Shown here: positions 3,843 to 19,887 of the stretch, one piece after another
Position numbering within the stretch: position 1 is the first letter of the stretch
Layout of the letters: every line of letters begins with the position of its first letter
IMG/VR virus record: IMGVR_UViG_3300009703_000019
Coordinates: 1 to 60,947 of that record
DNA length: 60,947 nucleotides
Direction: 5' to 3' (one strand)
Origin: a virus
Notes under the pieces: generated by a model
The model's database searches: none
What the model was told of the DNA's origin: nothing
What the model saw: only the letters and a program-made list of their open reading frames with translations
Position numbers and translations under genes: made by a program

Positions 3843-4340
3843 TCATTCCTCTGTGTCTTCAAAATATTGCGAATAATGATTGTTAATTTTTGGATTAAAC
3901 CAATTATCATTTATTTTATGTTTAACATGACCACAATGCTTACATTTATTCGCATGGTGCTCTGGTAGTTTTGGTACTGGTGTTGGTATCTTGGTAATAG
4001 GATCCACACCTACCATAAGGAATTGTGCGGTGACACATTTTATTTGAGCGGAAGTTTTAACATCCTCTTTAACTCCTACTACATCAACTACCATTGACGT
4101 TCTTCCGACCTTTGTAATTTCCCCCCTCACCGATAATAGGCATCCTATATCAATGGGTTCTAGAAATTGTACATCCATAATCTTAGCTGTAATACAGTAT
4201 AACCTACTGAATCTTCGGCTTGTGACCGAAGCAGTTTGATCTAATACTTTAAGTAATTCGCCCCCATGAAATTTATTATCAAAATTCGATTGTTCTGGAC
4301 TTGGTGAAATAACAATAGTTGTTGATATTGGATTATCCAT
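3843..4340 (-). CDS. Hotdog-fold acyl-CoA thioesterase (YciA/BFIT type) with cysteine tail
   Basis: 165 residues. Residues 1-125 match the single-hotdog acyl-CoA thioesterase family: FDNKFHGGELLKVLDQTAS (the HGG-x-x-L-x-x-x-D motif with the catalytic Asp) and GRTSMVVDVVGVKED. Enzymes of this family hydrolyse acyl-CoA thioesters in the cytoplasm. The substrate cannot be read from sequence: medium or long acyl-CoA is usual, and here malyl-CoA is an interesting alternative because the phage also encodes malyl-CoA lyase. The tail after residue 125 (NKCKHCGHVKH) looks like part of a metal site and is not typical of YciA. It sits last in the run ICL-endolysin-PEP synthase-FtsH-thioesterase. Confidence 0.75.
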   Translation of the reverse strand: MDNPISTTIVISPSPEQSNFDNKFHGGELLKVLDQTASVTSRRFSRLYCITAKIMDVQFLEPIDIGCLLSVRGEITKVGRTSMVVDVVGVKEDVKTSAQIKCVTAQFLMVGVDPITKIPTPVPKLPEHHANKCKHCGHVKHKINDNWFNPKINNHYSQYFEDTEE

Positions 4341-4351
4341 ATTCTCCCCGT

Positions 4352-6163
4352 TTAGTGGTCGTACCCTTGTGGTTCTCTAATAACATCTCTTCTTTCTAAT
4401 AAATCGTCGAGTTGATATTTGTCAATCGTTTCATATTTCATGAGACATTCGGTCATAGAATGTAAGATGTCTTCATTATCTTCGAGTATTTTCTTAGCCT
4501 TATCATAATTTTTGGTTGTTAATTTAATAACTTCCTCGTCTAGAAGTTTAGATATTTCTGGTGAAACTGTTTGAGCGGGTTGGCCCATGCTCCTACCCAT
4601 GAACGGATCACCTTGTTCATCTTCATAGCAAAGTGGACCTACTGCGTCACATAATCCCCATCGTTTGACCATATTTCTAGCAATAGATGTTGCTCTCTCA
4701 ATATCATTAGATGCACCAGTTGTAACTTTATCTTTACCGTAAACTAATTCTTCTGCAATCCGACCCCCATATAACGATTGAAGTTGTGATTCTAATTTTT
4801 CTTTTGATGCGGAATAAGAATCCTTTTCTGGTAGGAACATAGTAACCCCAAGAGCTCCACCTCTCGGCATAATAGATACCTTATAAACTGGATCATGAGT
4901 TTCGGTTAATCTACCTACAATGGCATGACCAGCCTCATGATATGCTGTCATTCTCTTCTCGTCCTCACCCATTATCATGGTTTTCTTTTCTACCCCCATA
5001 ATGAGTTTATCTTTTGCCCTTTCGAGGTCTGCCATGCAGATGTTTTCTTTATTTTCTTTTGCGGCAAAAAGAGCGGCCTCATTAATGAGATTTGCAAGTT
5101 CAGCACCACTGAATCCAGTAGTACCCTGTGCAATATATTCAAGTTTAATATCCGCGGATATTGGCACCCTTCGCATATGCACTTGAAGTATTTGCCCTCT
5201 GCCCTTGACATCAGGAAGTCCAACATTAATTTCTCTGTCAAATCTTCCGGGTCTTAATAATGCTTTATCTAGAACATCTGCTCTATTGGTTGCACCGAGT
5301 ACAATGATTCCATCTGAATCATCGAACCCATCCATTTCAACTAATAATTGGTTTAGGGTTTGTTCTCTCTCATCATTACCTCCACCGTGACCTGCCCCAC
5401 GCTGTCTTCCTACTGCATCAATTTCGTCTATGAATATGATACATGGACTGGATTTTCTTGCTTCAGAGAACATATCCCGAACTCTAGATGCACCAACACC
5501 AACAAACATTTCTACAAAATCTGAACCACTTATTGAAAAGAACGGAACATCTGCTTCACCGGCAATAGCACGAGCAAGTAAAGTTTTACCTGTGCCTGGT
5601 GGACCAACCATCAATGCACCCTTCGGTATTTTTGCACCGAGTCTTACATATTTTGGTGGGTTTCTAAGAAAATCTACCATCTCAGAAACCTCATCAAGAG
5701 CTTCTTCTACACCTGCGACATCAGAGAAAGTAACTTTCTCCTTTGACTGTTCTAGTTTTTTAGCTTTGTTCTTTCCTACAAATTTACCAGCACCACCGCC
5801 ACCTTGTCGCTTCATCCACCATATCCACACCCCTATTAATAACAATATAGGAAACCACGAAATGAATATGCTGAGAAAAAGAGAACCTTCCTTTGGTGGA
5901 TTTGCAATGACATCTACACCATTCTGGAGGAGATCATCTACCATGTGGGGATCATTGGGAGCATATGTTATAAATTTTCCACCGTCATAATATTCACCAA
6001 CAACGGTTTGATCATCTACTACAACTTTTTTTACCACCTTATCATTGACTAAATCTATAAATTTAGCATATGATACTTCCGATCCTATCTGCCCCCCTTT
6101 AGAATTCCCGAGGAAAGAGATAATAACTAATCCCATAATTAACCAAATTATTAGTCTTTTCAT
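4352..6163 (-). CDS. ftsH: ATP-dependent zinc metalloprotease FtsH
   Basis: A complete 603-residue FtsH: membrane helix (about 4-20), periplasmic domain (24-92), second helix (95-117), AAA domain with Walker A GPPGTGKT (187-194), Walker B IIFIDEID (242-249) and RPGRFDR second region of homology (304-310), then the M41 protease with HEAGH (409-413) and the third zinc ligand Asp near 487. The family degrades membrane and regulatory proteins in the inner membrane; in E. coli it controls LpxC, and with it the balance of lipid A and phospholipid. A phage copy next to lipid-metabolism genes could redirect membrane lipid turnover or protect the phage takeover. It is slightly short at the C-terminus compared with the E. 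coli enzyme (644). Confidence 0.95.
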
Positions 6164-6173
6164 AAATTGAATC

Positions 6174-8564
6174 CTATAATTCTAATATTTCTGATTCTAC
6201 GGAATGAACAACGTTGTTCATTGTCAAAATAGAATCGTAATTAAGTGATAGCGAATCAATCTCATGATTAACCAACCACGATGTTATTTCCGGGAAATCC
6301 GATGGTGCTTGCCCACAGATCCCAATATATTTACCATGTCTTTTGCATGATGTTATTGCCATTTCCATTAATTTGAGCACTGCTCCATTCCTCTCGTCAC
6401 ATCCGTTAATATTAGACGAATCTCTATCAACCCCAAGGGTTAATTGGGTTAAGTCATTAGATCCTATAGAAAATCCATCACAGTATTCTAAGAATTCATC
6501 CGCCAATAATGCATTACTTGGAACTTCGCACATGAATATAATTTTAATACCATGTTGACCAGATTTTATTCCATTTTCTTCTAATAATTGTATTACATTT
6601 TTTGCTTCATTTACAGTTCTAATAAAAGGAACCATAACTTGTATATTATTTAATCCATATTCTAGAATAACTTTTCTTATTGCAGAGCATTCCAACTCAA
6701 ATGCAAGTTTAAATTCTGGGGAATTATATCTATATGCACCCCTAAATCCGAGCATAGGATTTTCTTCCTCTGGTTCATAGAGATCACCACCATAGAGGTG
6801 AGCATATTCATTAGTTTTAAAATCGGATAATCTGAATATAACTGGTTTGGGATATACCGAAGCCGCAATGGTAGCAATACCATCTGCCAGTCTACTTCTA
6901 TAAAATTCTGTTGGTCGTGAATACCCAACAGTTTTTTCCGTTATGTGATCGTGCATCTCCTCAGATAATAGTGCATGATCGAGTATTGCGTTTGGGTGTA
7001 TACCTATACGGGAATTGATTATAAATTCAAGTCTTGCAAGTCCAACACCATCATTAGGATACTTAGCTATTTTAAATGCCATATCTGGATTACCAAGATT
7101 TAGCATCAATTTTGTTTTTGTTTTCTTGTATGAAGAAAAGTCTATTTTCTCTGTGGTGTATAGTAGGAGTCCATCGTAAACATATCCTATTTCACCTTCT
7201 GCACAAGATATTGTTATCTCCTCGTCATTTCCTATAACTGAGGTAGCATCATCACATCCAACCACGGCAGGTATACCAAGTTCTCTTGCTATAATTGCTG
7301 CGTGGCAAGTCCTACCTCCTCGATTGGTAATAATACCAGAGGATTTTTTCATTATTGGTTCCCAATCAGGATCGGTTATATCAGTTACGAGTATATCCCC
7401 CTCATTGAATTGATTCATATCACTGATATCATTAATGATAGATGATTTCCCCGAACCAATTTTAGATCCAATGGGTTTACCTGTAGTAATTACGGAGGAT
7501 GTTCGTTCTAATTTAAACACCTCATCAGAGCAAGGAGAATCCGCAGAATGAACCGTTTCTGGTCTAGATTGAACTATAAAGATTTCATTGGTAATACCAT
7601 CAATCGCCCACTCTATGTCCATGTGGGTCTTTTTACCATATTTCTTAGAATAATGGTCTTCAATAATTACTGCAGATTTAGCTAATGATATAACTTCCTC
7701 ATCACTTAAACAAAATTCTTGCTGCATGGATTTATCAACTTCAATATTATTCGTCCTATTAGACTCAGAATAAATCATTTTGACTAATTTGGCACCAAGC
7801 TGTCTTTGTATAATAGATTTATATCCATCCTTGAGAGTTGGTTTGAATACATAAAATTCATCTGGATTGACATTACCAGATACCACATTCTCACCAAGTC
7901 CGTATGCACCGGTGATAAATACCACATCATCAAATCCTGATTCTGTATCGAGGGTAAACATAACACCCGCGGTACCTCTATCAGATCGAACCATTTTCTG
8001 AATACCAATTGAAACTTTTACATCCCTGTGAGAATATCCATTACATATTCTATATGATATAATCCTGTCTGTAAATAATGAAGCGAATACGAGTTTACAT
8101 GCATGTATAACATCAACCGCACCAAATACATTTAGATATGTATCTAACTGACCGGCAAATGAATTTGATAATGAATCTTCTGTAGTTGCAGAAGATCTGA
8201 TAGCAACAGACCCACCAAGTTCATGATACGCTTGAAGTATCTCGAATTCTAATCGTGGTGGCATCTCTCCATTAATAAACCATGACCTAATAGTTTTACC
8301 TATTTCTGATAATGAGTCAATATCATCAATATCAACGTTCTTTAATATATCTTCAATTTTATGTTCGAGTTGATTGTGTTCAATAAAATCAGTATAACCA
8401 TCTACCTTTATGGCGAATCCATTCGGTACATTAATACCAGATTCGGTGAGTTCGGAATACATTTCACCGAGAGAAGCATTTTTACCACCAACTATAGAGA
8501 CATCTGATATACTTAATTCAGAATATTCTCGAATATAAGATAAATCACGATCAAATGCATGCAT
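6174..8564 (-). CDS. ppsA: Phosphoenolpyruvate synthase (pyruvate, water dikinase)
   Basis: 796 residues, the full length of the family. The N-terminal ATP-binding domain begins VSIVGGKNASLGEMY and contains GGSVAIRSSAT; the central swivelling phosphohistidine is in GGRTCHAAIIARELGIPAVVG; the C-terminal PEP/pyruvate domain has FSIGSNDLTQLTLGVDRD and the Cys proton donor in GICGQAPSD. It converts pyruvate + ATP + water to PEP + AMP + phosphate, the entry to gluconeogenesis. It lies between endolysin and FtsH with 10-15 base gaps, so it is probably on the same transcript as isocitrate lyase. It could equally regenerate PEP for sugar phosphates needed by PRPP synthetase. Confidence 0.93.
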   Translation of the reverse strand: MHAFDRDLSYIREYSELSISDVSIVGGKNASLGEMYSELTESGINVPNGFAIKVDGYTDFIEHNQLEHKIEDILKNVDIDDIDSLSEIGKTIRSWFINGEMPPRLEFEILQAYHELGGSVAIRSSATTEDSLSNSFAGQLDTYLNVFGAVDVIHACKLVFASLFTDRIISYRICNGYSHRDVKVSIGIQKMVRSDRGTAGVMFTLDTESGFDDVVFITGAYGLGENVVSGNVNPDEFYVFKPTLKDGYKSIIQRQLGAKLVKMIYSESNRTNNIEVDKSMQQEFCLSDEEVISLAKSAVIIEDHYSKKYGKKTHMDIEWAIDGITNEIFIVQSRPETVHSADSPCSDEVFKLERTSSVITTGKPIGSKIGSGKSSIINDISDMNQFNEGDILVTDITDPDWEPIMKKSSGIITNRGGRTCHAAIIARELGIPAVVGCDDATSVIGNDEEITISCAEGEIGYVYDGLLLYTTEKIDFSSYKKTKTKLMLNLGNPDMAFKIAKYPNDGVGLARLEFIINSRIGIHPNAILDHALLSEEMHDHITEKTVGYSRPTEFYRSRLADGIATIAASVYPKPVIFRLSDFKTNEYAHLYGGDLYEPEEENPMLGFRGAYRYNSPEFKLAFELECSAIRKVILEYGLNNIQVMVPFIRTVNEAKNVIQLLEENGIKSGQHGIKIIFMCEVPSNALLADEFLEYCDGFSIGSNDLTQLTLGVDRDSSNINGCDERNGAVLKLMEMAITSCKRHGKYIGICGQAPSDFPEITSWLVNHEIDSLSLNYDSILTMNNVVHSVESEILEL

Positions 8565-8579
8565 TATATTCTCCGATTA

Positions 8580-9038
8580 TTACATACGAATTTCGAAATG
8601 TGGTGCGTCAATGAAAGGTCTTCGACCCTGATTTCTACGAAGATCTATATATGATGTCATTAGAGATTCCATTGGAGCGTTCCATGCTCTGATATCATTG
8701 AGGTGCCATGCTGCACCCCATCTAAGTGGTATACCAACTTCAATTGCAGATTCTTTCATAGCCTCTGCAATATCATCATAGACCTTTAGTTCCCAAGAAA
8801 CCTGTGACCCAATATAAGCTACAAGATCAACCGCTTTCCCAGTAAGGTGATTCGATTTCATAGTTTTTGATGCACCCTTATTGAAAAGTTCTTCTTGCCT
8901 AGCAAGAGACCGAACTCCCTCAGATACACCAAAATCAATTTTAGTTAATGTGATAGCTCTATGAACACACGATACCAGTTGTTCATCAACACCCTCCAAT
9001 CTACCTAAACTTCTTGATGATAATCTAAAATTTGACAT
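8580..9038 (-). CDS. Endolysin, L-alanyl-D-glutamate peptidase (M15 family)
   Basis: 152 residues related to the T5-type VanY/M15C endolysins. Visible zinc-site residues are His64 and Asp71 (NHLTGKAVDLVA) and His147 (PHFEIRM at the C-terminus). It should cleave the L-Ala-D-Glu bond of peptidoglycan. There is no signal peptide or membrane helix, so it would need a holin. It is embedded between isocitrate lyase and PEP synthase, an unusual place for a lysis gene. Confidence 0.85.
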   Translation of the reverse strand: MSNFRLSSRSLGRLEGVDEQLVSCVHRAITLTKIDFGVSEGVRSLARQEELFNKGASKTMKSNHLTGKAVDLVAYIGSQVSWELKVYDDIAEAMKESAIEVGIPLRWGAAWHLNDIRAWNAPMESLMTSYIDLRRNQGRRPFIDAPHFEIRM

Positions 9039-9047
9039 ATTATTCCT

Positions 9048-10325
9048 CTAAAATTGTTCCTCTTCGGTCGAGCCATCCATAGCAGTAGTAGATGATTTTC
9101 CACCTTGTATAGTATTGGTAATTAAATCAAAATATCCAGCACCAACTTCCTCTTGATGTCTTGCAAATGTATATCCATCTTTAAGAGATGCGAATTCTGG
9201 TTCTTGAACTCCCTCAACATAAGCAGTCATACCCCTCTCAACATAATCCTTCGATAACTCAAACATAGAATGCCACATATCATGAATACCAGCAAGGGTA
9301 ATGAATTGCCATTTAAATCCCATCTCACCTAGGCGTTTCTGATAATGTGCTATGGTTTCATCATCTAAATTCTTTTTCCAATTGAATGATGGTGAACAGT
9401 TGTAAGCCAGCAACTTGCCAGGATATTGTTGATGTATCGCAGTCGCAAATTTCTGTGCTTCTTCGAGATTAGGTACTGCAGTTTCACACCAGAGCATATC
9501 AGCATACTGTGCATATGCAAGTCCTCTGGAAATGGCCTGATCGATTCCAGATTTAACCCTATAGAATCCTTCCTCTGTACGTTCCCCTGTAACAAATTCC
9601 TTATCACGAACATCTATATTAGAGGTCAGTAGAGTTGCGGCATTAGCATCGGTTCTAGCTACGATAATAGTTGGTACACCCATAACATCGGATGCTAATC
9701 TTGCGGATACGAGTTTTTGAATTGCTTCCTGAGTTGGAACCAGTACCTTACCGCCCATGTGACCACATTTTTTGGCAGAGGATAATTGATCTTCAAGATG
9801 TATACCAGACACACCATTCTCGATCATTGATTTGGTCAGTTCATATGAATTAAGAACTCCACCAAACCCAGCCTCGGCATCAGCAATAATAGGAGCAAAA
9901 TAATCTACTTCCCTCGATCCCTTTGCCCATTGAATTTCATCTGCTCGGCGAAACGTATTATTAATACGCTTAACCATTTGTGGCACTGAATTATATGCAT
10001 AGAGCGATTGATCTGGATACATAGTTTCGCTGGAATTGCCATCCGCTGCTACTTGCCATCCCGATAAATATATAACTTTAATTCCAGCCTTGACCTGTTG
10101 CATTGCCTGACCGGCAGTTATAGCTCCCATAGAATTAACATATCCATCTTCGTTAATTAAATCCCAAAGTTTTTTAGATCCCAGAGAAGCCATAGTGTAT
10201 TCTTCATCCATCGAACCTCTTAATCGAATAACATCTTCGGCCGAATAAGGTCTGGAGATACCATTCCATCGTTCATTCTCTCTCCAATCCTCTTCTAAAG
10301 TTCTCACTCTGCCCAAATTTTCCAT
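9048..10325 (-). CDS. aceA: Isocitrate lyase
   Basis: 425 residues, close to E. coli AceA (434) along its length: [40 protein letters not shown], the catalytic loop KKCGHMGGK with Cys187, and a C-terminal STEEEQF that closes the active site. It cleaves isocitrate to glyoxylate and succinate, the first step of the glyoxylate shunt. The start at 10325 is preferred: GAGG lies 12 bases upstream, and the in-frame extension to 10430 has no homology and covers another small gene. It is in the run downstream of the CobT-like gene. All catalytic motifs are intact, so an active enzyme is expected. Confidence 0.93.
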
Positions 10326-10351
10326 ATATATTTTTGACCTCGTAATTGTAA

Positions 10352-10522
10352 TTAATTTGCTAAATTTAGTATTAACCATACTCCAACGCATATGATTAAT
10401 GGTATTGTCATTGTCAATATAGACATCCAAACTGACTTAGTAACAGATTTACATAACCCATTACATTGATAATTAATCTTTTCCAGTATTATTTCTACCC
10501 CAGACTGTACTATTTCGTTCAC
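10352..10522 (-). CDS. Small membrane protein with GTG start
   Basis: A 56-residue frame starting at GTG (10520-10522) with GGAG upstream. The N-terminal half is soluble with two cysteines (CNGLC), followed by one membrane helix ([19 protein letters not shown]). It overlaps the end of the gene at 10473-10670 by 50 bases and lies in another frame of the apparent N-terminal extension of isocitrate lyase. The plausible topology suggests it is real; it is unproven. Confidence 0.4.
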
Positions 10523-10670
10523 TTTCTTTCTTCTCCGTTTTTTGTTTATTATTAAATATAATATCCCAATTATCTCTAAATTTTTTATTTGTTATTTTTG
10601 ACTGAAGCTTATCCCCAGTTATATCATTCTTTGCCGTCATGCCCTTCTCGTTTATAGTTCCATCGTGCAT
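10473..10670 (-). CDS. Conserved small T4-like phage protein
   Basis: 65 hydrophilic residues starting MHDGTINEKGMTAKNDITGD, a motif I recognise from small proteins conserved among marine T4-like phages. The function is unknown. The protein lacks membrane segments and its tail is lysine/asparagine-rich. Confidence 0.6.
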   Translation of the reverse strand: MHDGTINEKGMTAKNDITGDKLQSKITNKKFRDNWDIIFNNKQKTEKKESERNSTVWGRNNTGKD

Positions 10671-10700
10671 ATGTCTTTCCAGATCTCATAATTATATATG

Positions 10701-10898
10701 TCACCTACAAAATTCATTTAATATTGTAGCATTTCCTTCGATAACCTCAACAGTATTATCTTGAATGAAGGTGTATTTCTCCTCCATTTTATAACCGCAT
10801 TTCTTGTAATCACTCCAAGAAATGCACTCTATTTTACCGGAGAGTTTACCATCCCCATTCATTAAAGGAACTGATATCATTCCAGATTCAGTGATCAT
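10701..10898 (-). CDS. Small hypothetical protein
   Basis: 65 residues, ending the ATGA-coupled pair with the coiled-coil gene upstream. The block SWSDYKKCGYKMEEKY resembles KYEDFKLFGYKLELMW in the protein at 48665-48892, suggesting a small two-copy family in this phage. No function is recognised. Confidence 0.5.
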   Translation of the reverse strand: MITESGMISVPLMNGDGKLSGKIECISWSDYKKCGYKMEEKYTFIQDNTVEVIEGNATILNEFCR

Positions 10899-11137
10899 AT
10901 TTCCTCGACCTTTCTTTTCAATTTATCACGCTTTCGTTTAAGATCTTTAATCTCCCGTTTTAATTCTTTCTTTTCATCTAAATATCTGTTTACATCACTT
11001 ATATCACCGCACTTAGCCTCCATACGATTACCGATACTCTGTAATTCCTCTAGTAATCCCATAACAATTGAAAAGTTTCGTGTTTTATAACAAGCTCGCA
11101 TTTCATCTATCACGGTACAAAAATATCTATTTGTCAT
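10895..11137 (-). CDS. Conserved coiled-coil protein
   Basis: 80 residues: a globular front (MTNRYFCTVIDEMRACYKTRNF, of a type seen in marine T4-like phages) and a strongly charged coiled coil from about residue 45 (Lys/Arg/Glu heptads). Its stop overlaps the next start (ATGA). It follows the CobT-like gene by 18 bases and could serve as a partner of it, but that is only positional. Confidence 0.6.
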   Translation of the reverse strand: MTNRYFCTVIDEMRACYKTRNFSIVMGLLEELQSIGNRMEAKCGDISDVNRYLDEKKELKREIKDLKRKRDKLKRKVEEI

Positions 11138-11155
11138 GTAAATCCTCCTTTGTAA

Positions 11156-13297
11156 TTAGGCTACCAATCTAGCAAACTCTTGAGCAATTAATTTGTTCAT
11201 TTTCTTATTCTTTTGAAATTTCTTGAAATCCCGTTTAATTGTTGTAAGTCTTTTTTTATCAATAACATCACCCTTTGCTTCAGTTGAAAATTCTTCCTCC
11301 TCTGCATTGAGTCTCTTATCATGAACTACGATATAGTGATCATAACCAGCATTGTTGCTTGAGACCGAATAACCGCTTTTATCAACATCAATTCTTTTTG
11401 AAGTTAAGAAGAATCCAATCAAATTATATTTCTGACGAATTCTTTCGAATATTTTATTATTAATGATCTTCGGCATGTGACCATAAAGATCAGGATAAGG
11501 AATTTCTATATTGGGATGACCCTCAACAGAAACGATAAAGGTTTTAGTTTTAGTTGATCCAAAAAATCTAGAAGTATTATCGGGAGAAGTAACTCTCACA
11601 TCCTGTGCATCACCATCGGTTAAAAAGATAACATTCAATTTATCAACTCTATTTCTTTTGAGGAAATCGTCAATCATAAGAAGAGAAACTGCCGAGGTTT
11701 CAACAAGTGGTGTACCTCCGAGTTTAAATGCAGGCTCTATAGCCCATCTATGTCGGGACCATTTATTATCATTATGATCATATGGTTTATGACGAGCAGA
11801 AGTAATAACAGATGAAAACATAACTCTCTCAAACATTTTATTTAATTTGGGGGTTGACCATTTAGAGTCTCCGATCTTAACCAAATTAACTGCCCAATTG
11901 TGAGTATCATATTTAGATTTATTATCTTCTCCTCTCCAGGATCTATATTTTTCACTGTTAGTTGTAAAAGAATATAATTCAAAAGGAATATTAATTCTTT
12001 TAGCAAACATGGATAATATGATCGATTGTTTAACAGTTTCGTGGAGTCTGATAGACATTGAGGCTGAAAAATCAATGTACATAATGAGACCGTGATTCTT
12101 AGAATCTGGCATATTTAGAACAGTTTTAAAAATCCGATCGTCTAATTTATATTTCCAGAGTTTATTAACGTCAATTGAACCTGAAGTGGATTCTTTGATT
12201 TTTCTAGATTCCATTGCAGATTTACGAAGTTCGAATTGTTGAACCATCGCATTAACTGCTGGTTTAATATCCGAAATAAATTCTTTATATTCTGAGGAAT
12301 ATTCATTTCGAAGTCTTGTATATTCTTCGGAAAAATCTTTCATAACATATTCTAGAGATTTTTCAAAATCCTTCTCTGAATATAACCATTCTTCCTTTAA
12401 TTGTTTTTTAGTAAATTTAATTTGGGTTATTACAGAGTCGGAATGTGTTAATTTACTTTCATTGTTTCTAAAATTTTGATCGGTAACAGAATCATAGAGA
12501 TTGTTATCTCCAGTGAGAGCTTCATCTTCCGTTTCATAGTCACCGGGTGGGATATCATCATCTCTCTGCTGAACCATTTGGGTTTCTTCAGAATCTTTCC
12601 CTTCTTCGCTTTCTTCTGAATCCCCATCCTCTGAACCAGAATCTTCTTCACTTTCTTCTGAATCTCCATCCTCTGAATCGTAATCTTCTCCTTCTTCATT
12701 TTCAGATTCTGAATCCTCTGAGTATTCCTCTTTCTTAGATTCCTCATTTTCTTTTGAAATGAAGTCCATTAACTCTCGAGAAATTGAAATAGTATCATCA
12801 AAAGTTTGAATTTCAAAAACCTTTGACATCATAACAGATTCAGCGAAAGAGAATTCAAGATCAATTGAATTATTTAATTTAGCTTTAAGATTAAGTCTAT
12901 CAAGGAAACTGAGTTTATTTGGATCGACATCTTTAATTCCAAAGAAGTTATCCGCCATAAGACGTTTGTAACCTTTAACGAAATCATTAATTAATCCCGG
13001 ATAAAATTCTCGAATCATTCGTTCAATACGAACATCTTCGACAATATTCAAAATAGAATGAGGAATATCAACAATTTTGGGAAATGCCTCTCCATCGTGA
13101 GAGAAAATGTCAGGGGTATAAAGAGCGTGACCAACTTCGTGCCCAATAAAGAGCGGATAAGCGTCGGAATATTCTTCCTTCAATATAGGTAATCTAAGTA
13201 TTCGGTTCGCTGGATCAAAGGAGGCAGTTTTGAAGTTTCCCTCAATTACCTCCAAATCCTCTCGAGCCATTAACTTAGAAAGTAACGATTTATTCAT
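11156..13297 (-). CDS. CobT-like von Willebrand A protein with zinc-protease-like HEVGH motif
   Basis: 713 residues. An N-terminal block has IGHEVGHALYTP (about 51-62), a zincin-type HExxH motif; residues about 185-255 form a highly acidic Glu/Ser/Asp linker with a repeated SEDGDSEESEE unit; the C-terminal half is a VWA domain with the MIDAS motif DFSASMS (about 410) and FLTDGD. This layout matches the CobT-like partner of the MoxR-type ATPase CobS found in T4-like marine phages; the matching ATPase is at 56753-57931. The natural substrate is unknown: cobalt chelation is one idea, chaperone or protein-remodelling activity is more likely given the MoxR-VWA pairing. It is the first gene after a strong promoter. 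Confidence 0.8.
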   Translation of the reverse strand: MNKSLLSKLMAREDLEVIEGNFKTASFDPANRILRLPILKEEYSDAYPLFIGHEVGHALYTPDIFSHDGEAFPKIVDIPHSILNIVEDVRIERMIREFYPGLINDFVKGYKRLMADNFFGIKDVDPNKLSFLDRLNLKAKLNNSIDLEFSFAESVMMSKVFEIQTFDDTISISRELMDFISKENEESKKEEYSEDSESENEEGEDYDSEDGDSEESEEDSGSEDGDSEESEEGKDSEETQMVQQRDDDIPPGDYETEDEALTGDNNLYDSVTDQNFRNNESKLTHSDSVITQIKFTKKQLKEEWLYSEKDFEKSLEYVMKDFSEEYTRLRNEYSSEYKEFISDIKPAVNAMVQQFELRKSAMESRKIKESTSGSIDVNKLWKYKLDDRIFKTVLNMPDSKNHGLIMYIDFSASMSIRLHETVKQSIILSMFAKRINIPFELYSFTTNSEKYRSWRGEDNKSKYDTHNWAVNLVKIGDSKWSTPKLNKMFERVMFSSVITSARHKPYDHNDNKWSRHRWAIEPAFKLGGTPLVETSAVSLLMIDDFLKRNRVDKLNVIFLTDGDAQDVRVTSPDNTSRFFGSTKTKTFIVSVEGHPNIEIPYPDLYGHMPKIINNKIFERIRQKYNLIGFFLTSKRIDVDKSGYSVSSNNAGYDHYIVVHDKRLNAEEEEFSTEAKGDVIDKKRLTTIKRDFKKFQKNKKMNKLIAQEFARLVA

Positions 13298-13331
13298 AAT
13301 ATATATACACCTTTTATCAATTTATACATAT

Positions 13332-13360
13332 ATTATATCAAATTTAACAGTGAATGTAAA
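13332..13360 (-). promoter_or_regulatory. Sigma70-like promoter for the CobT-to-thioesterase run
   Basis: On the minus strand, TTTACA (13355-13360), a 17-base spacer and TATAAT (13332-13337). The leader then carries TATAAATTGATAAA and a ribosome site before the CobT-like start. The genes down to 3843 follow in the same direction, so isocitrate lyase, PEP synthase and FtsH may be on this transcript. Confidence 0.75.
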
Positions 13361-13378
13361 CAATTATTTTCATTTATT

Positions 13379-13534
13379 TCACCTTTGATGCTGTATTTTT
13401 GTCATACCCACTAATTTAAACCATCTTAGACAATGCGGACATCTAATTTTAGATAGAGAATAAAACCTAACAAAAGACCCGGGTTTACCCTCATCACACG
13501 GACATTTAAAGTCTGTTATATCAACTTCTTTCAT
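13379..13534 (-). CDS. Small zinc-ribbon-like protein
   Basis: A 51-residue frame with two cysteine pairs, CPC near residue 11 and CPHC near 32, suggesting one metal site. It overlaps the end of the gene at 13521-13964 by 14 bases and runs up to the CobT promoter. The cysteine pattern and coupling support it; the function is unknown. Confidence 0.45.
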   Translation of the reverse strand: MKEVDITDFKCPCDEGKPGSFVRFYSLSKIRCPHCLRWFKLVGMTKIQHQR

Positions 13535-13964
13535 TTCCAAGCGCTAATACCAGATAATGAATAGCCTTAAGGAGATCTTTTTTATTTTTACCACCCTTTT
13601 TACCATATCGCATGAGATATTTAATGGTAGTATCAATACAAGAATCGGTCATAGACCCGCGCGCCTTCCATACATCTAAGGTTTGAACCTCATTATTTTG
13701 GTTGGTGTAATGCTCAGAATATGTCGATTCAATATATTTTTTGATTTCTGTTAATGTTGACAGTTCCGAATAATTATACTTAAAGTTAGTATCAGATCCA
13801 TACATTCTTTTGTATTCCGAATCCTCTTTAAAATCTATTTCTGGATCTGGAAATTCGTTGAAATTTGGTGCACTATTCAACTCGAACCATTCTTCCCAAT
13901 CAGTTTGAGTTGCTTTCCAATTAATAGCATCACAATTAATTTTGGAAAATTTAGAATCCATCAT
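13521..13964 (-). CDS. DUF3310-type protein
   Basis: 147 residues. The C-terminal about 55 residues (LDVWKARGSMTDSCIDTTIKYL then RYGKKGGKNKKDLLKAIHYL) match the small helical DUF3310 domain common in phages, often annotated as nucleotide-related without proof. The N-terminal part is acidic and not recognised. Start 13964 has GGAG four bases upstream and overlaps the stop of the preceding small basic gene; an upstream in-frame ATG at 13985 is less likely. Confidence 0.65.
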   Translation of the reverse strand: MMDSKFSKINCDAINWKATQTDWEEWFELNSAPNFNEFPDPEIDFKEDSEYKRMYGSDTNFKYNYSELSTLTEIKKYIESTYSEHYTNQNNEVQTLDVWKARGSMTDSCIDTTIKYLMRYGKKGGKNKKDLLKAIHYLVLALGNERS

Positions 13965-14098
13965 AGTACTCCATTCCTCACCCATTTAGCAGTGGGATGT
14001 CGTTTTTTAGTATAGGTTCCATGCCCAGTTTGTTTTGCTAGAGGTTTACCCCTAGCAGTTCTTTCATTACTTTTGAATGGTTTATATCGTTTACTCAT
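13961..14098 (-). CDS. Small basic conserved phage protein
   Basis: A 45-residue, Lys/Arg-rich protein starting MSKRYKPFKSNERTARGKPL, of a type I recognise from T4-like phages. Its stop overlaps the next start (ATGATG). Possible nucleic-acid binding is inferred from charge only. Confidence 0.55.
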   Translation of the reverse strand: MSKRYKPFKSNERTARGKPLAKQTGHGTYTKKRHPTAKWVRNGVL

Positions 14099-14106
14099 AA
14101 TTCACC

Positions 14107-15072
14107 TCACTCTTCGTATTTGTTTGATCTAGAATTAATGATATTAATTGTTTCTAATATATTCTTTGCCATTTTCTCTGATGCAACATCTATCATTTTA
14201 CCGTCAAGAGATGCTGCACCTTGTCCTGCTTTAGATGCTTTGTATAATGCATCAAGTATTCTTTCTGCCGTGGTGACTTCTTCTTTTGATGGTGTGAATA
14301 CTTCATTTGCAAGTGGTATTTGTGACGGATGTATTGCCCATTTACCAGTACATCCGAGAGCTGCTGCACGCTTAGCTGCTAGTACATATCCCTCTTTATC
14401 CTTAATATCACCGTATGGACCATCTACGGGTCTGAGACCATACGCTCTACATGCAACCACCATTCTTGATAAAGCAGAATGCCATTGATCACCAGGATAA
14501 TTCTCATTGAGCCCACCGATATTGGTAGTTCTTGCTCGAGTAGATGCAGCATAATCGGCAACTCCAAAATGCATGGATTCTAATCTAGAATTAACACTCT
14601 TCCTTGCAATTTCATCAACATTAGACATACCAAGAGCAGTTTCTATTAGGCATTCTAATCGAACAGATCCCTTTTTGAGATTGTGTTTTATTTCAAGAGT
14701 ATTAATGATACATTCAACCATGTATATATCATCAAATACACCTACCTTTGGTATTAATATAGTATCTAATTTTTCTCCGCAATGTTCAACCAACTGTATT
14801 ACATCATCAAGCCAATAACCAGTTTCAAGTCCGTTGATACGAACACATATAGTTTTATTTGCGCCTTTCCAATCTAGATTATTAATTCCAGCAATCACAT
14901 TAGCTCGTGCCTGTATCTTATCTGGTGTTGCAACAGAATCTTCCAAATCTAGGAATACAAAATCTGCATCGGAATTTAATGCTTTCTCAAACATTTTTGG
15001 ACTAGATCCCGGAACTGTTAAATCACATCTCTGAAGTCTTGATATTGCGGGTTCGTATACTGTATAACTCAT
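14107..15072 (-). CDS. mcl1: L-malyl-CoA / beta-methylmalyl-CoA lyase (HpcH/HpaI family)
   Basis: 321 residues, full length for the malyl-CoA lyase subgroup rather than plain citrate-lyase beta. Conserved stretches include RCDLTVPGSSPKMFEKAL, FLDLEDSVA, VRING (Arg78), LIETALG (Glu144), FGVADYAASTRART (Asp173) and GKWAIHPSQIPLANEVF, the family's Arg, metal-binding Glu/Asp and CoA-closing elements. The enzyme reversibly condenses acetyl-CoA with glyoxylate to malyl-CoA. Combined with a thioesterase it can replace malate synthase, as in Rhodobacter sphaeroides. It lies downstream of PRPP synthetase on what looks like one transcript. Confidence 0.88.
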   Translation of the reverse strand: MSYTVYEPAISRLQRCDLTVPGSSPKMFEKALNSDADFVFLDLEDSVATPDKIQARANVIAGINNLDWKGANKTICVRINGLETGYWLDDVIQLVEHCGEKLDTILIPKVGVFDDIYMVECIINTLEIKHNLKKGSVRLECLIETALGMSNVDEIARKSVNSRLESMHFGVADYAASTRARTTNIGGLNENYPGDQWHSALSRMVVACRAYGLRPVDGPYGDIKDKEGYVLAAKRAAALGCTGKWAIHPSQIPLANEVFTPSKEEVTTAERILDALYKASKAGQGAASLDGKMIDVASEKMAKNILETINIINSRSNKYEE

Positions 15073-15080
15073 AATTTTCC

Positions 15081-15185
15081 TTATTCAATTATATTAATAA
15101 TGATATGTATTAGTTCTATAACTCCAAGAGATAATATGTATATTATCATTCCTGAAGCTATTAATACTGTTATAATATCCCTCAT
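15081..15185 (-). CDS. 34-residue membrane peptide
   Basis: Starts MRDIITVLIASGMIIYILS; nearly all hydrophobic. The ATG overlaps the TGA stop of the 53-residue gene upstream (ATGA), supporting translational coupling. No function is recognised. Confidence 0.45.
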   Translation of the reverse strand: MRDIITVLIASGMIIYILSLGVIELIHIIINIIE

Positions 15186-15343
15186 TGATCCGGTTTTTTC
15201 TGGACAGGGAATTGTGCATCCTTCCATCTCAATTTAGCCCAAGTTCTATAGGTATCATCCTCGGGATCAACATTTTTGTCATACGTCTTATAAAATTTTA
15301 TAAGCAATGTTCTATTTGATCTTTCCCATTTATCAAAATTCAT
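15182..15343 (-). CDS. Small hypothetical protein
   Basis: 53 residues starting MNFDKWERSNRTLLIKFYKTY, with aromatic and charged composition typical of a real soluble peptide. It begins one base after the PRPP synthetase stop and its own stop overlaps the next ATG. The product is not recognised. Confidence 0.5.
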   Translation of the reverse strand: MNFDKWERSNRTLLIKFYKTYDKNVDPEDDTYRTWAKLRWKDAQFPVQKKPDQ

Positions 15344-15344
15344 T

Positions 15345-16292
15345 TCAAGACACCAATGCCTTCAATGATTCCCCATTATAAAATCTTCTTATTGTTTCAG
15401 ATAATAAATCTTCAATACTAATAACTTTAATTTTGAGGGGGAGATCTTTTACTTGCTCAATGGAATCAGATATATATACCTTCCCTAGATTAGAATCCTC
15501 AATTCGTTGTATTGCCTTTCCAGAAAATACACCATGAATGGATATAGCATCCACCGATTTCGATCCAGATTTTTCTAATGCCTCTACAGCACCAATTAAT
15601 GTTCCACCCCCATCAATCATATCATCCACTATGACACATTTTTTATCGGTAACATTCCCAATAACATTCATAACTTTAGATTCGCCAGGCTCTGGTCTTC
15701 TCTTATCAATAATAGCTATAGGAAGATTTAATAAATTGGAAAAATATCGAGCCCTAGAAGTACCACCCACATCTGATGAGACTACAACATCCCAATAAGA
15801 AGGAACAATCGCGGCAACGATAGAATCCCTCATAGTTTTCAGTCCAGATATATGTTCACATACTACATTGTTATTAAAAAATCCCTGTGTCTGGAGTGAA
15901 TGAAGATCCATACAAATGACAGAATTTATACCAGTATGACAAAGCATATTAGCAATCACTTTACCCGATATTGGAGAGCGATTGGTTCTTCTATCCTGGC
16001 GAGCGTAAGGATAGTAAGGAAATATGACATTTATTTTGGAGGGGTTTGATCGACGAACAGCATCAATGATTAACATAAGTTCAAGTATGTCATTATTTTT
16101 ATTTGAGTCTTTAGAAAACCCCGCGATGAGGAAAATTTCTTCCCTTCGTATATTTTCTTTTATTTCAACGTATATTTCGGAATCGGGGAAATCCCGAACA
16201 TACATTTTTGCTAGTCTTACATTAAGTTTCTCTGCTACCTTTTCTGCTAGGATTCTATTCGATCTTGTAGAAACCAATTTAAAGTTTTGCAT
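15345..16292 (-). CDS. prs: Ribose-phosphate pyrophosphokinase (PRPP synthetase)
   Basis: 315 residues, identical in length to bacterial class I enzymes. Motifs: FPYYPYARQDRRT (ATP/flexible region), DLHSLQTQGFF (catalytic His), SSDVGGTSRARYF, and the PRPP-binding loop VIVDDMIDGGGTL. It makes PRPP from ribose 5-phosphate and ATP, the shared precursor for purines, pyrimidines and NAD. It directly follows a strong promoter and is followed on the same strand by malyl-CoA lyase, tying nucleotide supply to two-carbon metabolism. Confidence 0.93.
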   Translation of the reverse strand: MQNFKLVSTRSNRILAEKVAEKLNVRLAKMYVRDFPDSEIYVEIKENIRREEIFLIAGFSKDSNKNNDILELMLIIDAVRRSNPSKINVIFPYYPYARQDRRTNRSPISGKVIANMLCHTGINSVICMDLHSLQTQGFFNNNVVCEHISGLKTMRDSIVAAIVPSYWDVVVSSDVGGTSRARYFSNLLNLPIAIIDKRRPEPGESKVMNVIGNVTDKKCVIVDDMIDGGGTLIGAVEALEKSGSKSVDAISIHGVFSGKAIQRIEDSNLGKVYISDSIEQVKDLPLKIKVISIEDLLSETIRRFYNGESLKALVS

Positions 16293-17353: not shown

Positions 17354-17680
17354 CTATTTAAAATTATATTTATATTCTACAGCCACATTTTCAATATGTT
17401 GATCGGTACCTTGAAATACGTCCCAGGGACCAGACATATTGAAACGGTTATACATTACTCCAACCTCATGAACTTTTGCAGTGCCGATATAGGCAGTAGT
17501 AAACAGTCTTAGGGAATTGGAATTTTGAGAACCAGACCAAAAATCATTCATTGCATCCGCATCTTGTGTCCACCGAAATCCAGCATCCTTCATCTGAATG
17601 TCGAAAGCATCGCCAGACATTACTGCGCTGGATGTAGTTAAAGCAAACATTGCTAAAATCAAAACTAATATATTTTTCAT
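17354..17680 (-). CDS. Secreted hypothetical protein
   Basis: 108 residues with a Sec signal peptide (MKNILVLILAMFALTTSSAVMSG, cleavage near Ala19-Met21). The mature part is rich in aromatic residues and alternating strands (VGVMYNRF, VAVEYKYNFK), ending in a positively charged/aromatic strand, which resembles a small outer-membrane beta structure. It is not recognised. It lies between the tmRNA and the lipoprotein. Confidence 0.55.
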   Translation of the reverse strand: MKNILVLILAMFALTTSSAVMSGDAFDIQMKDAGFRWTQDADAMNDFWSGSQNSNSLRLFTTAYIGTAKVHEVGVMYNRFNMSGPWDVFQGTDQHIENVAVEYKYNFK

Positions 17681-17699: not shown

Positions 17700-17934
17700 A
17701 CAACAAAATCGATCCGTTCTGTTGCCAAGTGGATCAGACTCCGCGTTTTAACCTAGAGGCTAAGCAGCAAGTGCAAAATTATCTTCTGCGTTTATATTTT
17801 TGATTTTTACATCTTTCTTGATGGGCGGTCAATATATCGTTAACACATTGTCGAAACTGTTCTCTCCCATTGGTGGAAGAGGCGGGAATCGCACCCGCGT
17901 CCAACATATCTCAAATATACATCATACTGCCATA
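17700..17934 (-). ncRNA. ssrA: Circularly permuted (two-piece) tmRNA
   Basis: Read on the minus strand, the acceptor half comes first: P2 3' strand (17902-17922), T-arm stem GCGGG/CCCGC with loop (17882-17898), acceptor strand CTCTTCC (17875-17881), discriminator A and encoded CCA (17871-17873). After only two bases comes the 5' acceptor strand GGGAGAG (17862-17868), pairing over 7 bp with a G-U at the third pair, the alanine identity element. Then comes the conserved TTCGAC D-arm segment (17850-17855) and the P2 5' strand (17832-17850), which can pair with the first element through 9 and 7 bp around a 3x3 internal loop. The tag frame lies further on. The half ends near 17700; exact ends are estimated. 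It starts at the stop codon of the tail-fibre paralog. tmRNA rescues stalled ribosomes together with SmpB, which is not in the window. Confidence 0.85.
17760..17789 (-). other. tmRNA tag reading frame (AEDNFALAA)
   Basis: Ten codons GCA to TAG within the tmRNA encode A-E-D-N-F-A-L-A-A, closely similar to proteobacterial tags such as ANDENYALAA. The ALAA end is the ClpX degron. The resume codon GCA is inferred from alignment with known tags; the frame is open upstream as well. Confidence 0.8.
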
Positions 17935-18150
17935 TTACCCAAGTGCTATAGCCATCGCTGTAGCTACTCCAGTATCTTCTTTTGTTGTAACATCAACATA
18001 GTTAGCAACCTCAACAATTGTCCCGCTAGCCAATTTTGTATATAGTTTTTTATCAACTGCATTCATAGCGATTTCACCCACATCTAGATCAGATGCAGTG
18101 GGAATACTACTTGCTGTTTCCGATCTTTTTATCTTTATTTTTGTCGCCAT
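17935..18150 (-). CDS. Short tail-fibre N-terminal paralog
   Basis: 71 residues starting MATKIKIKRSETASSIPTAS, with the same N-terminal signature (MATxIKIKRS, then GE-I/L-A) as the 538-residue tail-fibre protein at 18271. It then ends after VEVANYV and a short tail. It is probably a small virion/fibre-attachment protein. Its stop codon marks the edge of the tmRNA acceptor half. Confidence 0.65.
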   Translation of the reverse strand: MATKIKIKRSETASSIPTASDLDVGEIAMNAVDKKLYTKLASGTIVEVANYVDVTTKEDTGVATAMAIALG

Positions 18151-18271
18151 TCTCTTTACTCAGTAATCTGGTTTCTAACAAAATATTTTGTGTTGTCAAT
18201 TCGTTGATCCGATTCTGCATAACTTTAATTAGATCATTAATATCATATTCATCAGTTATAGTTTTATTCAC
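18107..18271 (-). CDS. Small coiled-coil protein with GTG start
   Basis: A 54-residue frame starting GTG, overlapping the last base of the tail-fibre stop (TAGTG). It is heptad-rich (VMQNRINELTTQNILLETRLL) with a Lys/Asp-rich tail. It overlaps the next gene by 44 bases. Similar short coiled-coil proteins lie next to fibre genes of marine T4-like phages; a trimerisation or chaperone role is inferred. Confidence 0.45.
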   Translation of the reverse strand: MNKTITDEYDINDLIKVMQNRINELTTQNILLETRLLSKENGDKNKDKKIGNSK

Positions 18272-19887
18272 TAAAAGGTACCACCATCTAGATCACCAAA
18301 TGCAGGGGCAGCGGCACCATTCGACATCATAACTTGACCTAAAGTCCCAGCACCAAGAACAGTTAATTCTCCTGTTCCACTTGCCATTAATAATCTATAG
18401 CTAGTTAAAGCTGAAACCCCTGTACCACCATTCAAAACAGGCAATATACCGGTAACTTTAGTCGTTAGATCAATACTTGCATTGGATATCATTGCATTAG
18501 TGATACCTAACGATTTTACATTTAATGCATCCGTTGTAATCTCAATTGATGAATCATCAACAGAAACGTCTATTTGATTCCCAACTTTAGTTAAACCCGC
18601 TCCTGCTGATATTTGACCTGCACCAGAGAACTGTGCGAATGTAATATCGGAAGTTCCAAGTGTTGGAGTTCCATTATGAGTTGTTACATAACCATTATCA
18701 GAATTATTCGATCCTTCTTCAACAAAGAAAAATGCTCCACCGGTTAATTTAGCTCCCGTATTTGCATCAGTCGCTCTACTTAATATATATGCAGCGGAAA
18801 CCGATCCAGCATTAGTTACAGTGTAAATACCATTATGTTCTTCATTTGGTGATACTTGATCTTTAACTAATATTCTATCCCCTACTGTCCATGTAGTAAT
18901 ACCATCAACTGAAAGAACCCCATTTGAAGATGCAGTTAAAACATTAGAACTATATGTTGTTCCCAAATTGGTTGTTGTAGCTACTCGAACAGATTCTTTA
19001 ACATCTAAACCATTTATTGTAGCATCAACATATGCTTTTGTTGCCGCATCCTGATCACCAGTTGGATCAGCGACATTAGTAAGTCTATTGCTACCCATTG
19101 AAACAGTTTGGGTTGAAGAAATTGACAATCCATCTAATGTGCCGAGTGAAGTAATATTAGGTTGTGCATTTGTTTGTAAAGTTCCTGTTAAATCTGTAGC
19201 AGAAAGAGAAGTTAATCCAGAAATTGTTGGGGATAATCCGAGAGTAAAAGTTCCACCTGATTGGGTTACAGTTGTTTCGTTTGCTATTGGAGAAATGGTA
19301 AATGAACCACCGAGGGAAATACTAGATGATGTTGTACCATCGGTAATAGAAATATCAGAATTTGTTAATGACGAATTTGGAATCGCTGATGTTGCAACGG
19401 TAGTAGTCCCAGCAGAATCGTTATAGGTAATTGAAATACCAGTACCATCTGTAATAGATCCACCAGATATATCTTCAATATATTCTTGGAGTGTCGTGGA
19501 AGAATCGGTATACATATTATCAACAACAGTTTTACCTGCGCCCGTTGGTGATATTATAATATCCCCTGATGTAGAACTTAATGTATTACCATTTAATTGT
19601 AGATTATCTACTTTAATCTGATCTATTTTATTGTTCGAATCTGTAACAATTCCAGATGATGCGGTCAGTACTCCTGGTACATGATCCAGCATTTCTGTGA
19701 AATATTTACCACCGACAATTTCGATATTAGCAGCAACTCCGTTAGTTTCTGTCCCAGTACCAACAAATAATCTATCTCCAAAATTCCCCTGAGAACCAGA
19801 TCCATAGGTATATGCTAATTCACCATTCCCTAGTTCATTTGGAGTAGTAGTACCAGCACTCCTTTTTATCTTTATTATAGTTGCCAT
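18271..19887 (-). CDS. Tail fibre / adhesin-like structural protein
   Basis: 538 residues of Ser/Thr/Gly/Asn-rich, beta-structured sequence. The N-terminus MATIIKIKRSAGTTTPNELG and GELAYTYG is typical of fibre proteins of marine T4-like phages. The middle has repeated SITDGT and TNVADPTGDQDAATKAYVD, a motif common in phage fibre stalks, and the C-terminus has GILPVLNGGTGVSAL. It is likely a host-recognition component. It is late-type, downstream of the box at 20545-20552. Confidence 0.75.
   Translation of the reverse strand: MATIIKIKRSAGTTTPNELGNGELAYTYGSGSQGNFGDRLFVGTGTETNGVAANIEIVGGKYFTEMLDHVPGVLTASSGIVTDSNNKIDQIKVDNLQLNGNTLSSTSGDIIISPTGAGKTVVDNMYTDSSTTLQEYIEDISGGSITDGTGISITYNDSAGTTTVATSAIPNSSLTNSDISITDGTTSSSISLGGSFTISPIANETTVTQSGGTFTLGLSPTISGLTSLSATDLTGTLQTNAQPNITSLGTLDGLSISSTQTVSMGSNRLTNVADPTGDQDAATKAYVDATINGLDVKESVRVATTTNLGTTYSSNVLTASSNGVLSVDGITTWTVGDRILVKDQVSPNEEHNGIYTVTNAGSVSAAYILSRATDANTGAKLTGGAFFFVEEGSNNSDNGYVTTHNGTPTLGTSDITFAQFSGAGQISAGAGLTKVGNQIDVSVDDSSIEITTDALNVKSLGITNAMISNASIDLTTKVTGILPVLNGGTGVSALTSYRLLMASGTGELTVLGAGTLGQVMMSNGAAAPAFGDLDGGTF

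Follow-up and report, generated by a model that had tools for sequence, protein, structure and literature searches.

The stretch analysed here, called the window, comprises 60,947 nucleotides of IMG/VR virus record IMGVR_UViG_3300009703_000019 and carries on its minus strand a complete circularly permuted tmRNA gene (approximately 17931-17711), detected with both ARAGORN and cmscan with Rfam. ARAGORN called a permuted tmRNA with the tag AEDNFALAA. With the covariance models, the gene scored 106 bits (E 1.1e-19) against RF04321 (tmRNA_permuted) over 17931-17760, above the curated cut-off of 47 bits, and 71.7 bits against RF01849 (alpha_tmRNA), whose gathering threshold is 50 bits, in a match that covered the full model (1-355) and reached 17707. 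As in RF04321, the acceptor half is encoded 5' of the coding half with an intervening sequence between them, a 7-bp acceptor with a G3-U70 pair, a T-arm and CCA are present, P2 replaces the anticodon arm, and the tag frame has an alanine resume codon and a hydrophobic ALAA-like end (Table 1). A first-pass annotation had already proposed a permuted tmRNA here, and the acceptor halves, AT spacer, T-arm, TTCGAC, P2 and tag all lie where it had put them; the lack of a covariance-model hit, which it had named as grounds for rejection, was not what the searches returned. The G-U third acceptor pair that it had pointed out is also there, and is the usual alanine identity pair and no oddity. The tmRNA gene is real and intact and, judging from its sequence, its product is probably functional and ordinary in kind.

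Table 1. Elements of the tmRNA gene and adjacent reading frames in the window.
Feature	Position	Strand	Basis or remark
Tail-fibre-like gene, upstream	18271..19887	-	PHROGs
71-aa ORF similar to N-terminus of phage tail fibre/baseplate proteins	17935..18150	-	stop 3 nt 5' of tmRNA
Acceptor piece, 5' part	17882..17931	-	cmscan RF04321, fold, covariation
P2, 5' strand	17931-17902	-	cmscan RF04321, fold, covariation
T-arm GCGGG-TGCGATT-CCCGC	17898-17882	-	stem 17898-17894 with 17886-17882, loop TGCGATT
Acceptor stem, 3' strand CTCTTCC	17881-17875	-	sequence, ARAGORN, fold
Discriminator A, then encoded CCA	CCA 17873-17871	-	sequence, ARAGORN, fold
2-nt spacer AT, between CCA and G1	17869..17870	-	sequence
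Acceptor stem, 5' strand GGGAGAG, third pair G-U	17868-17862	-	sequence, cmscan, covariation
TTCGAC segment	17855-17850	-	sequence, cmscan, covariation
P2, 3' strand	17824..17850	-	outer pairs covary in orthologues
Small hairpin CATC-AAGAAA-GATG, 5' of tag	17810..17823	-	fold; invariant in orthologues
Tag frame GCA GAA GAT AAT TTT GCA CTT GCT GCT TAG (AEDNFALAA)	17760..17789	-	ARAGORN
3' domain stem GATCC...GGATC around conserved ACTTGGCAACAGAAC	17711..17735	-	alpha_tmRNA match, fold, alignment
108-aa downstream ORF, signal-peptide-like start	17354..17680	-	related ORF after tmRNA in relatives

The 132-nt tRNA-like part folded at -41.2 kcal/mol compared with -27.6 for shuffles (z -4.4), none of the 200 shuffles being equally stable. 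A single fold holds the acceptor stem, the T-arm and P2 together, so that the P2 and acceptor pairings, whose incompatibility the same annotation had offered as a second ground for rejection, do coexist. In the minimum-energy fold the inner P2 register is slid into TTCGAC; in the canonical Rfam-model register, which was used for pair counting, the inner P2 helix is also fully paired.

A scan with the prs gene near the tmRNA yielded eleven related phage loci, and the tmRNA was present in 11 of the 12 records that these form with the window. In an alignment of six distinct orthologue sequences, 97.3% of the base-pair cells were paired and five pairs had changed on both sides, whereas in a control with the partners slid by 1-3 columns only 36-57% were paired, with 0-1 pairs changed on both sides. 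The third acceptor pair was invariably G-U in this alignment, and in the 3' domain the stem letters varied while the loop ACTTGGCAACAGAAC was kept. The outer P2 reads GGC/GCC in the window, GAC/GTC in relative L124, GAT/ATC in L129 and L131, and AAT/ATT in a sister lineage. The outermost P2 of the window has one A-C mismatch that its orthologues lack, as might be seen in a tmRNA captured from a host that had lost its function and was decaying; against such decay stand the compensatory changes between close relatives (GGC/GCC versus GAC/GTC), the intact tag and the presence of the gene in nearly all records of the clade, which make it very improbable. Chance resemblance or an assembly artefact is barely conceivable, being refuted by the E value of the RF04321 match, by the covariation and by the orthologue in L124, a separate contig with the same AT spacer and a prs protein 95% identical.

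The tag sequence and its stop, as first read, were reproduced by ARAGORN. AEDNFALAA is shared by the window, L124 and L129, and L131 has AEYNFALAA. Its description as a gamma-type tag had to be abandoned, since ARAGORN lists AEDNFALAA for Clostridium beijerinckii, C. perfringens and Syntrophomonas wolfei.

The window encodes a gp43-type polymerase, a UvsX-like recombinase, a DnaB-like helicase, a clamp loader and a helicase loader, a T4-like gene set in agreement with the initial assignment, and PHROGs confirmed that the tmRNA lies directly behind tail-fibre-like genes on the same strand. As the tmRNA starts 3 nt past the stop of a tail-fibre-like ORF, its transcription would start at a late promoter and run through the tail-fibre genes, and late expression is plausible from this position. 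A T4 late promoter directly 5' of the tmRNA was sought and rejected, the nearest upstream TATAAATA lying at 20552-20545; all 11 motifs of this T4-type late promoter consensus in the window are on the coding strand, their total being that expected by chance. No Rho-independent terminator was found behind the tmRNA of the window. In L129 and L253, a strong hairpin with a T-run (AATAACCAGGGGCCTGCATAAGGTCTCTGGTTATTCTTTTTTT) lies behind the tmRNA (L253, approximately 1360-1400) and is a likely terminator, which the window lacks. An ORF related to the 108-aa downstream ORF is found behind the tmRNA in L124, L129 and the sister lineage. A search for smpB (PF01668) in 14 records, the window included and most of them fragments, gave no match, while the positive controls worked; as the window's record is one linear contig of 60.9 kb, the gene could lie elsewhere in the phage.

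At the acceptor end, the precursor encoded in the window has only a 6-nt loop, ACCAAU, and the isolated hairpin folds into 8 bp capped by a CCAA tetraloop. Within one clade the spacer measures 2 nt (window), 7 nt (L129), 6 nt (L131) or 278-281 nt (sister lineage). Spacers of 3-5 nt were fairly common (15 of about 100 fetched loci), and spacers of 1 nt were found in L137, in the group L135, L136, L138, L140 and L141, and in a Rickettsiales MAG contig (L252); another bacterial MAG (L251) has 3 nt. With the pattern used, only two contigs of the genome collection held bacterial CCA-encoding forms with a spacer of 3 nt or less. BLAST of the L138 tmRNA led to isolated T4-like cyanophages. In three of these phages, S-CAM1, S-SSM7 and Sf-FS3 (RF01851, cyano_tmRNA), the gap from the discriminator to G1 is 5 nt, as in the window; the loop between the acceptor strand and G1 likewise has 6 nt, ACUCAU or ACUCAG instead of ACCAAU, and the S-CAM1 hairpin also folds as 8 bp with a tetraloop. 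Unlike the window, these phages have cyano-type tmRNAs with no encoded CCA and long unusual tags. The acceptor-loop geometry is common to the window and cultured cyanophages. The 2-nt spacer is near the lower end of the range, extreme but with precedents in the 1-nt phage and Rickettsiales cases and the 5-nt cyanophage gap; the unusual processing that had at first been read from it was overstated. The cyano-type permuted tmRNAs of S-SSM7, S-CAM1 and Sf-FS3 (L274, L275 and L277) are unannotated in their records, and a hypothetical protein is annotated over those of S-SSM7 and S-CAM1.

A loop this short could escape cleavage and leave an undivided RNA whose acceptor stem is capped, inert or competing for SmpB and ribosomes, and persistence in one piece had indeed been suggested at first. 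Few of the observed spacers are shorter, the isolated hairpin closes on itself, and a tmRNA-like RNA of phage DS6A that has no coding part is reported to inhibit the endogenous tmRNA (PMC11915505). In an uncut RNA the CCA would be trapped within the loop, which would preclude aminoacylation and hence any tmRNA function, yet the CCA is exactly encoded and the tag frame, the G-U pair and the 3' domain are conserved. Moreover, short loops recur in the window lineage, L137, the L138 group, S-CAM1/S-SSM7 and the Rickettsiales MAG, and such recurrence in separate groups is hard to reconcile with an abolished function. Persistence as a single uncut piece is therefore quite improbable.

Very probably, the locus is a phage-borne permuted ssrA that is co-transcribed with the tail-fibre genes, cut, trimmed and used as a two-piece tmRNA for trans-translation with the SmpB of the host. 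In the precursor, which would be transcribed together with the tail-fibre genes upstream, P2 and the acceptor stem join the coding half to the acceptor strand, as the fold and the covariation show. The loop ACCAAU would then be opened by tRNA-processing enzymes of the host, with RNase P cutting before G1, a cleavage that has to be assumed as the CCA is buried in the closed 6-nt loop, and the 3' AU would be trimmed back to the encoded CCA. The product would be a two-piece tmRNA whose halves are held through base pairing, charged with alanine via the G3-U70 pair. As no smpB was found in the window, its partner would be host SmpB. By analogy with the family, the charged molecule would rescue stalled ribosomes and add AEDNFALAA to their products for degradation, and the gain for the phage would probably be ribosome recycling late in infection.

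The spacer can thus be reduced to a couple of nucleotides with the paired core preserved, and a clade with 2, 6, 7 or approximately 280 nt offers a natural series for studying by which enzyme the acceptor loop is opened and whether the spacer is ever functional in its own right. In the sister lineage (L256-L262), which forms one clade in the prs tree (100/100), the spacer was 278-281 nt in 7 of the 7 records examined (for example L262:1559-1839), and an eighth contig with this element was found (L268:10974-11251). CCA is not encoded in these tmRNAs, and the ends of the element, AAATTGTCTAG ... CTAGACAATTT, pair as an 11-bp inverted repeat that extends the acceptor stem. Over the last ~140 bases of the element, four sequence types differ by a single indel, despite prs DNA that differs by up to 8% between two of these types, and an internal hairpin shows compensatory changes (GGGGG/CCCCC, GGGTG/CGCCC, GAGTG/CGCTC). 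Both features point to a selected RNA. Rfam gave no match to the element even at E 10, and none of the phage records searched had more than a chance match to it. A protein-coding spacer was rejected because the four sequence types share no reading frame, and a decayed tandem copy was unconvincing, as 5 of 300 shuffles reached the coding-half match and 19 of 300 the acceptor-half match. Possible identities for the element include a ribozyme, a mobile element bearing terminal repeats and an RNA set free when the tmRNA is processed. It is conceivable but unlikely that the spacer is a site with or without a functional RNA of 278-281 nt, possibly self-processing or otherwise autonomous, the window being the form without it; if so, a self-processing element would free tmRNA maturation from the host.

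A permuted tmRNA in a T4-like genome had been regarded as unusual, which cannot be maintained: two-piece tmRNAs of marine phages are published (PMC9004378), and at least 120 IMG/VR contigs fitted the permuted pattern with a spacer of 0-30 nt in a pattern scan, most of the loci fetched from it being confirmed by ARAGORN. The published count is 53 two-piece tmRNAs in phages, 50 of them of marine or aquatic source, and includes a description in the T4-like phage Melnitz (PMC9004378); all forms together, 79 unique bacteriophage tmRNAs have been listed (PMC11915505). The window adds a well-supported case to this little-studied set. A T-arm scan gave 103 more permuted layouts among 112 viral hits, with spacers of 12 to 493 nt, and on this count the T-loop TGCGATT (versus TTCGATT) was rejected as a special feature. 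Spacers of 320-493 nt were seen in apparent permuted tmRNAs of L179, L250, L204, L214, L222 and L152.

The two-piece tmRNA of Melnitz, a Methylophilales phage of the Kyanoviridae, was reproduced in this analysis. Like that of the window, it is a permuted tmRNA of a marine T4-like phage that matches RF04321 and RF01849, and the acceptor, T-arm, TTCGAC and tag layout are conserved in both. In contrast, its spacer exceeds 100 nt instead of 2 nt, its tag is ANDNYVPVDYALAA instead of AEDNFALAA, a glutamine riboswitch lies behind it whereas the window gave no riboswitch hit, and it immediately precedes the genes for the late-transcription coactivator and the helicase loader, whereas the tmRNA of the window follows tail-fibre genes. 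Among clade-specific models, the alphaproteobacterial two-piece tmRNA (RF01849) was the best for the window, the resume region and 3' stem included. Unannotated permuted tmRNAs were also found in Stenotrophomonas phage DLP6 (L002:2977-3320, KU682439.2) and Xanthomonas phage X1 (L003:2942-3392, OQ427096.1), so a gammaproteobacterial host for the phage of the window would not be new.

Elsewhere in the window, a phage FtsH protease is encoded at 4352-6163 on the minus strand, with FtsH_ext, AAA and Peptidase_M41 domains and HEAGH and GPPGTGKT motifs; FtsH was also present in records G001 and G011. FtsH is among the proteases known to degrade ssrA-tagged proteins, so the tag and the protease in one phage may be linked. 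Host inference from this protein was not informative, the similarity being ~63% at best, to Pseudomonadota genomes. A block of metabolic genes on the minus strand (3843-16292) encodes a thioesterase, a PEP synthase/PPDK-like protein, an isocitrate lyase, an HpcH/HpaI lyase and a ribose-phosphate pyrophosphokinase, and the isocitrate lyase was present in five of the six records of the window's clade.
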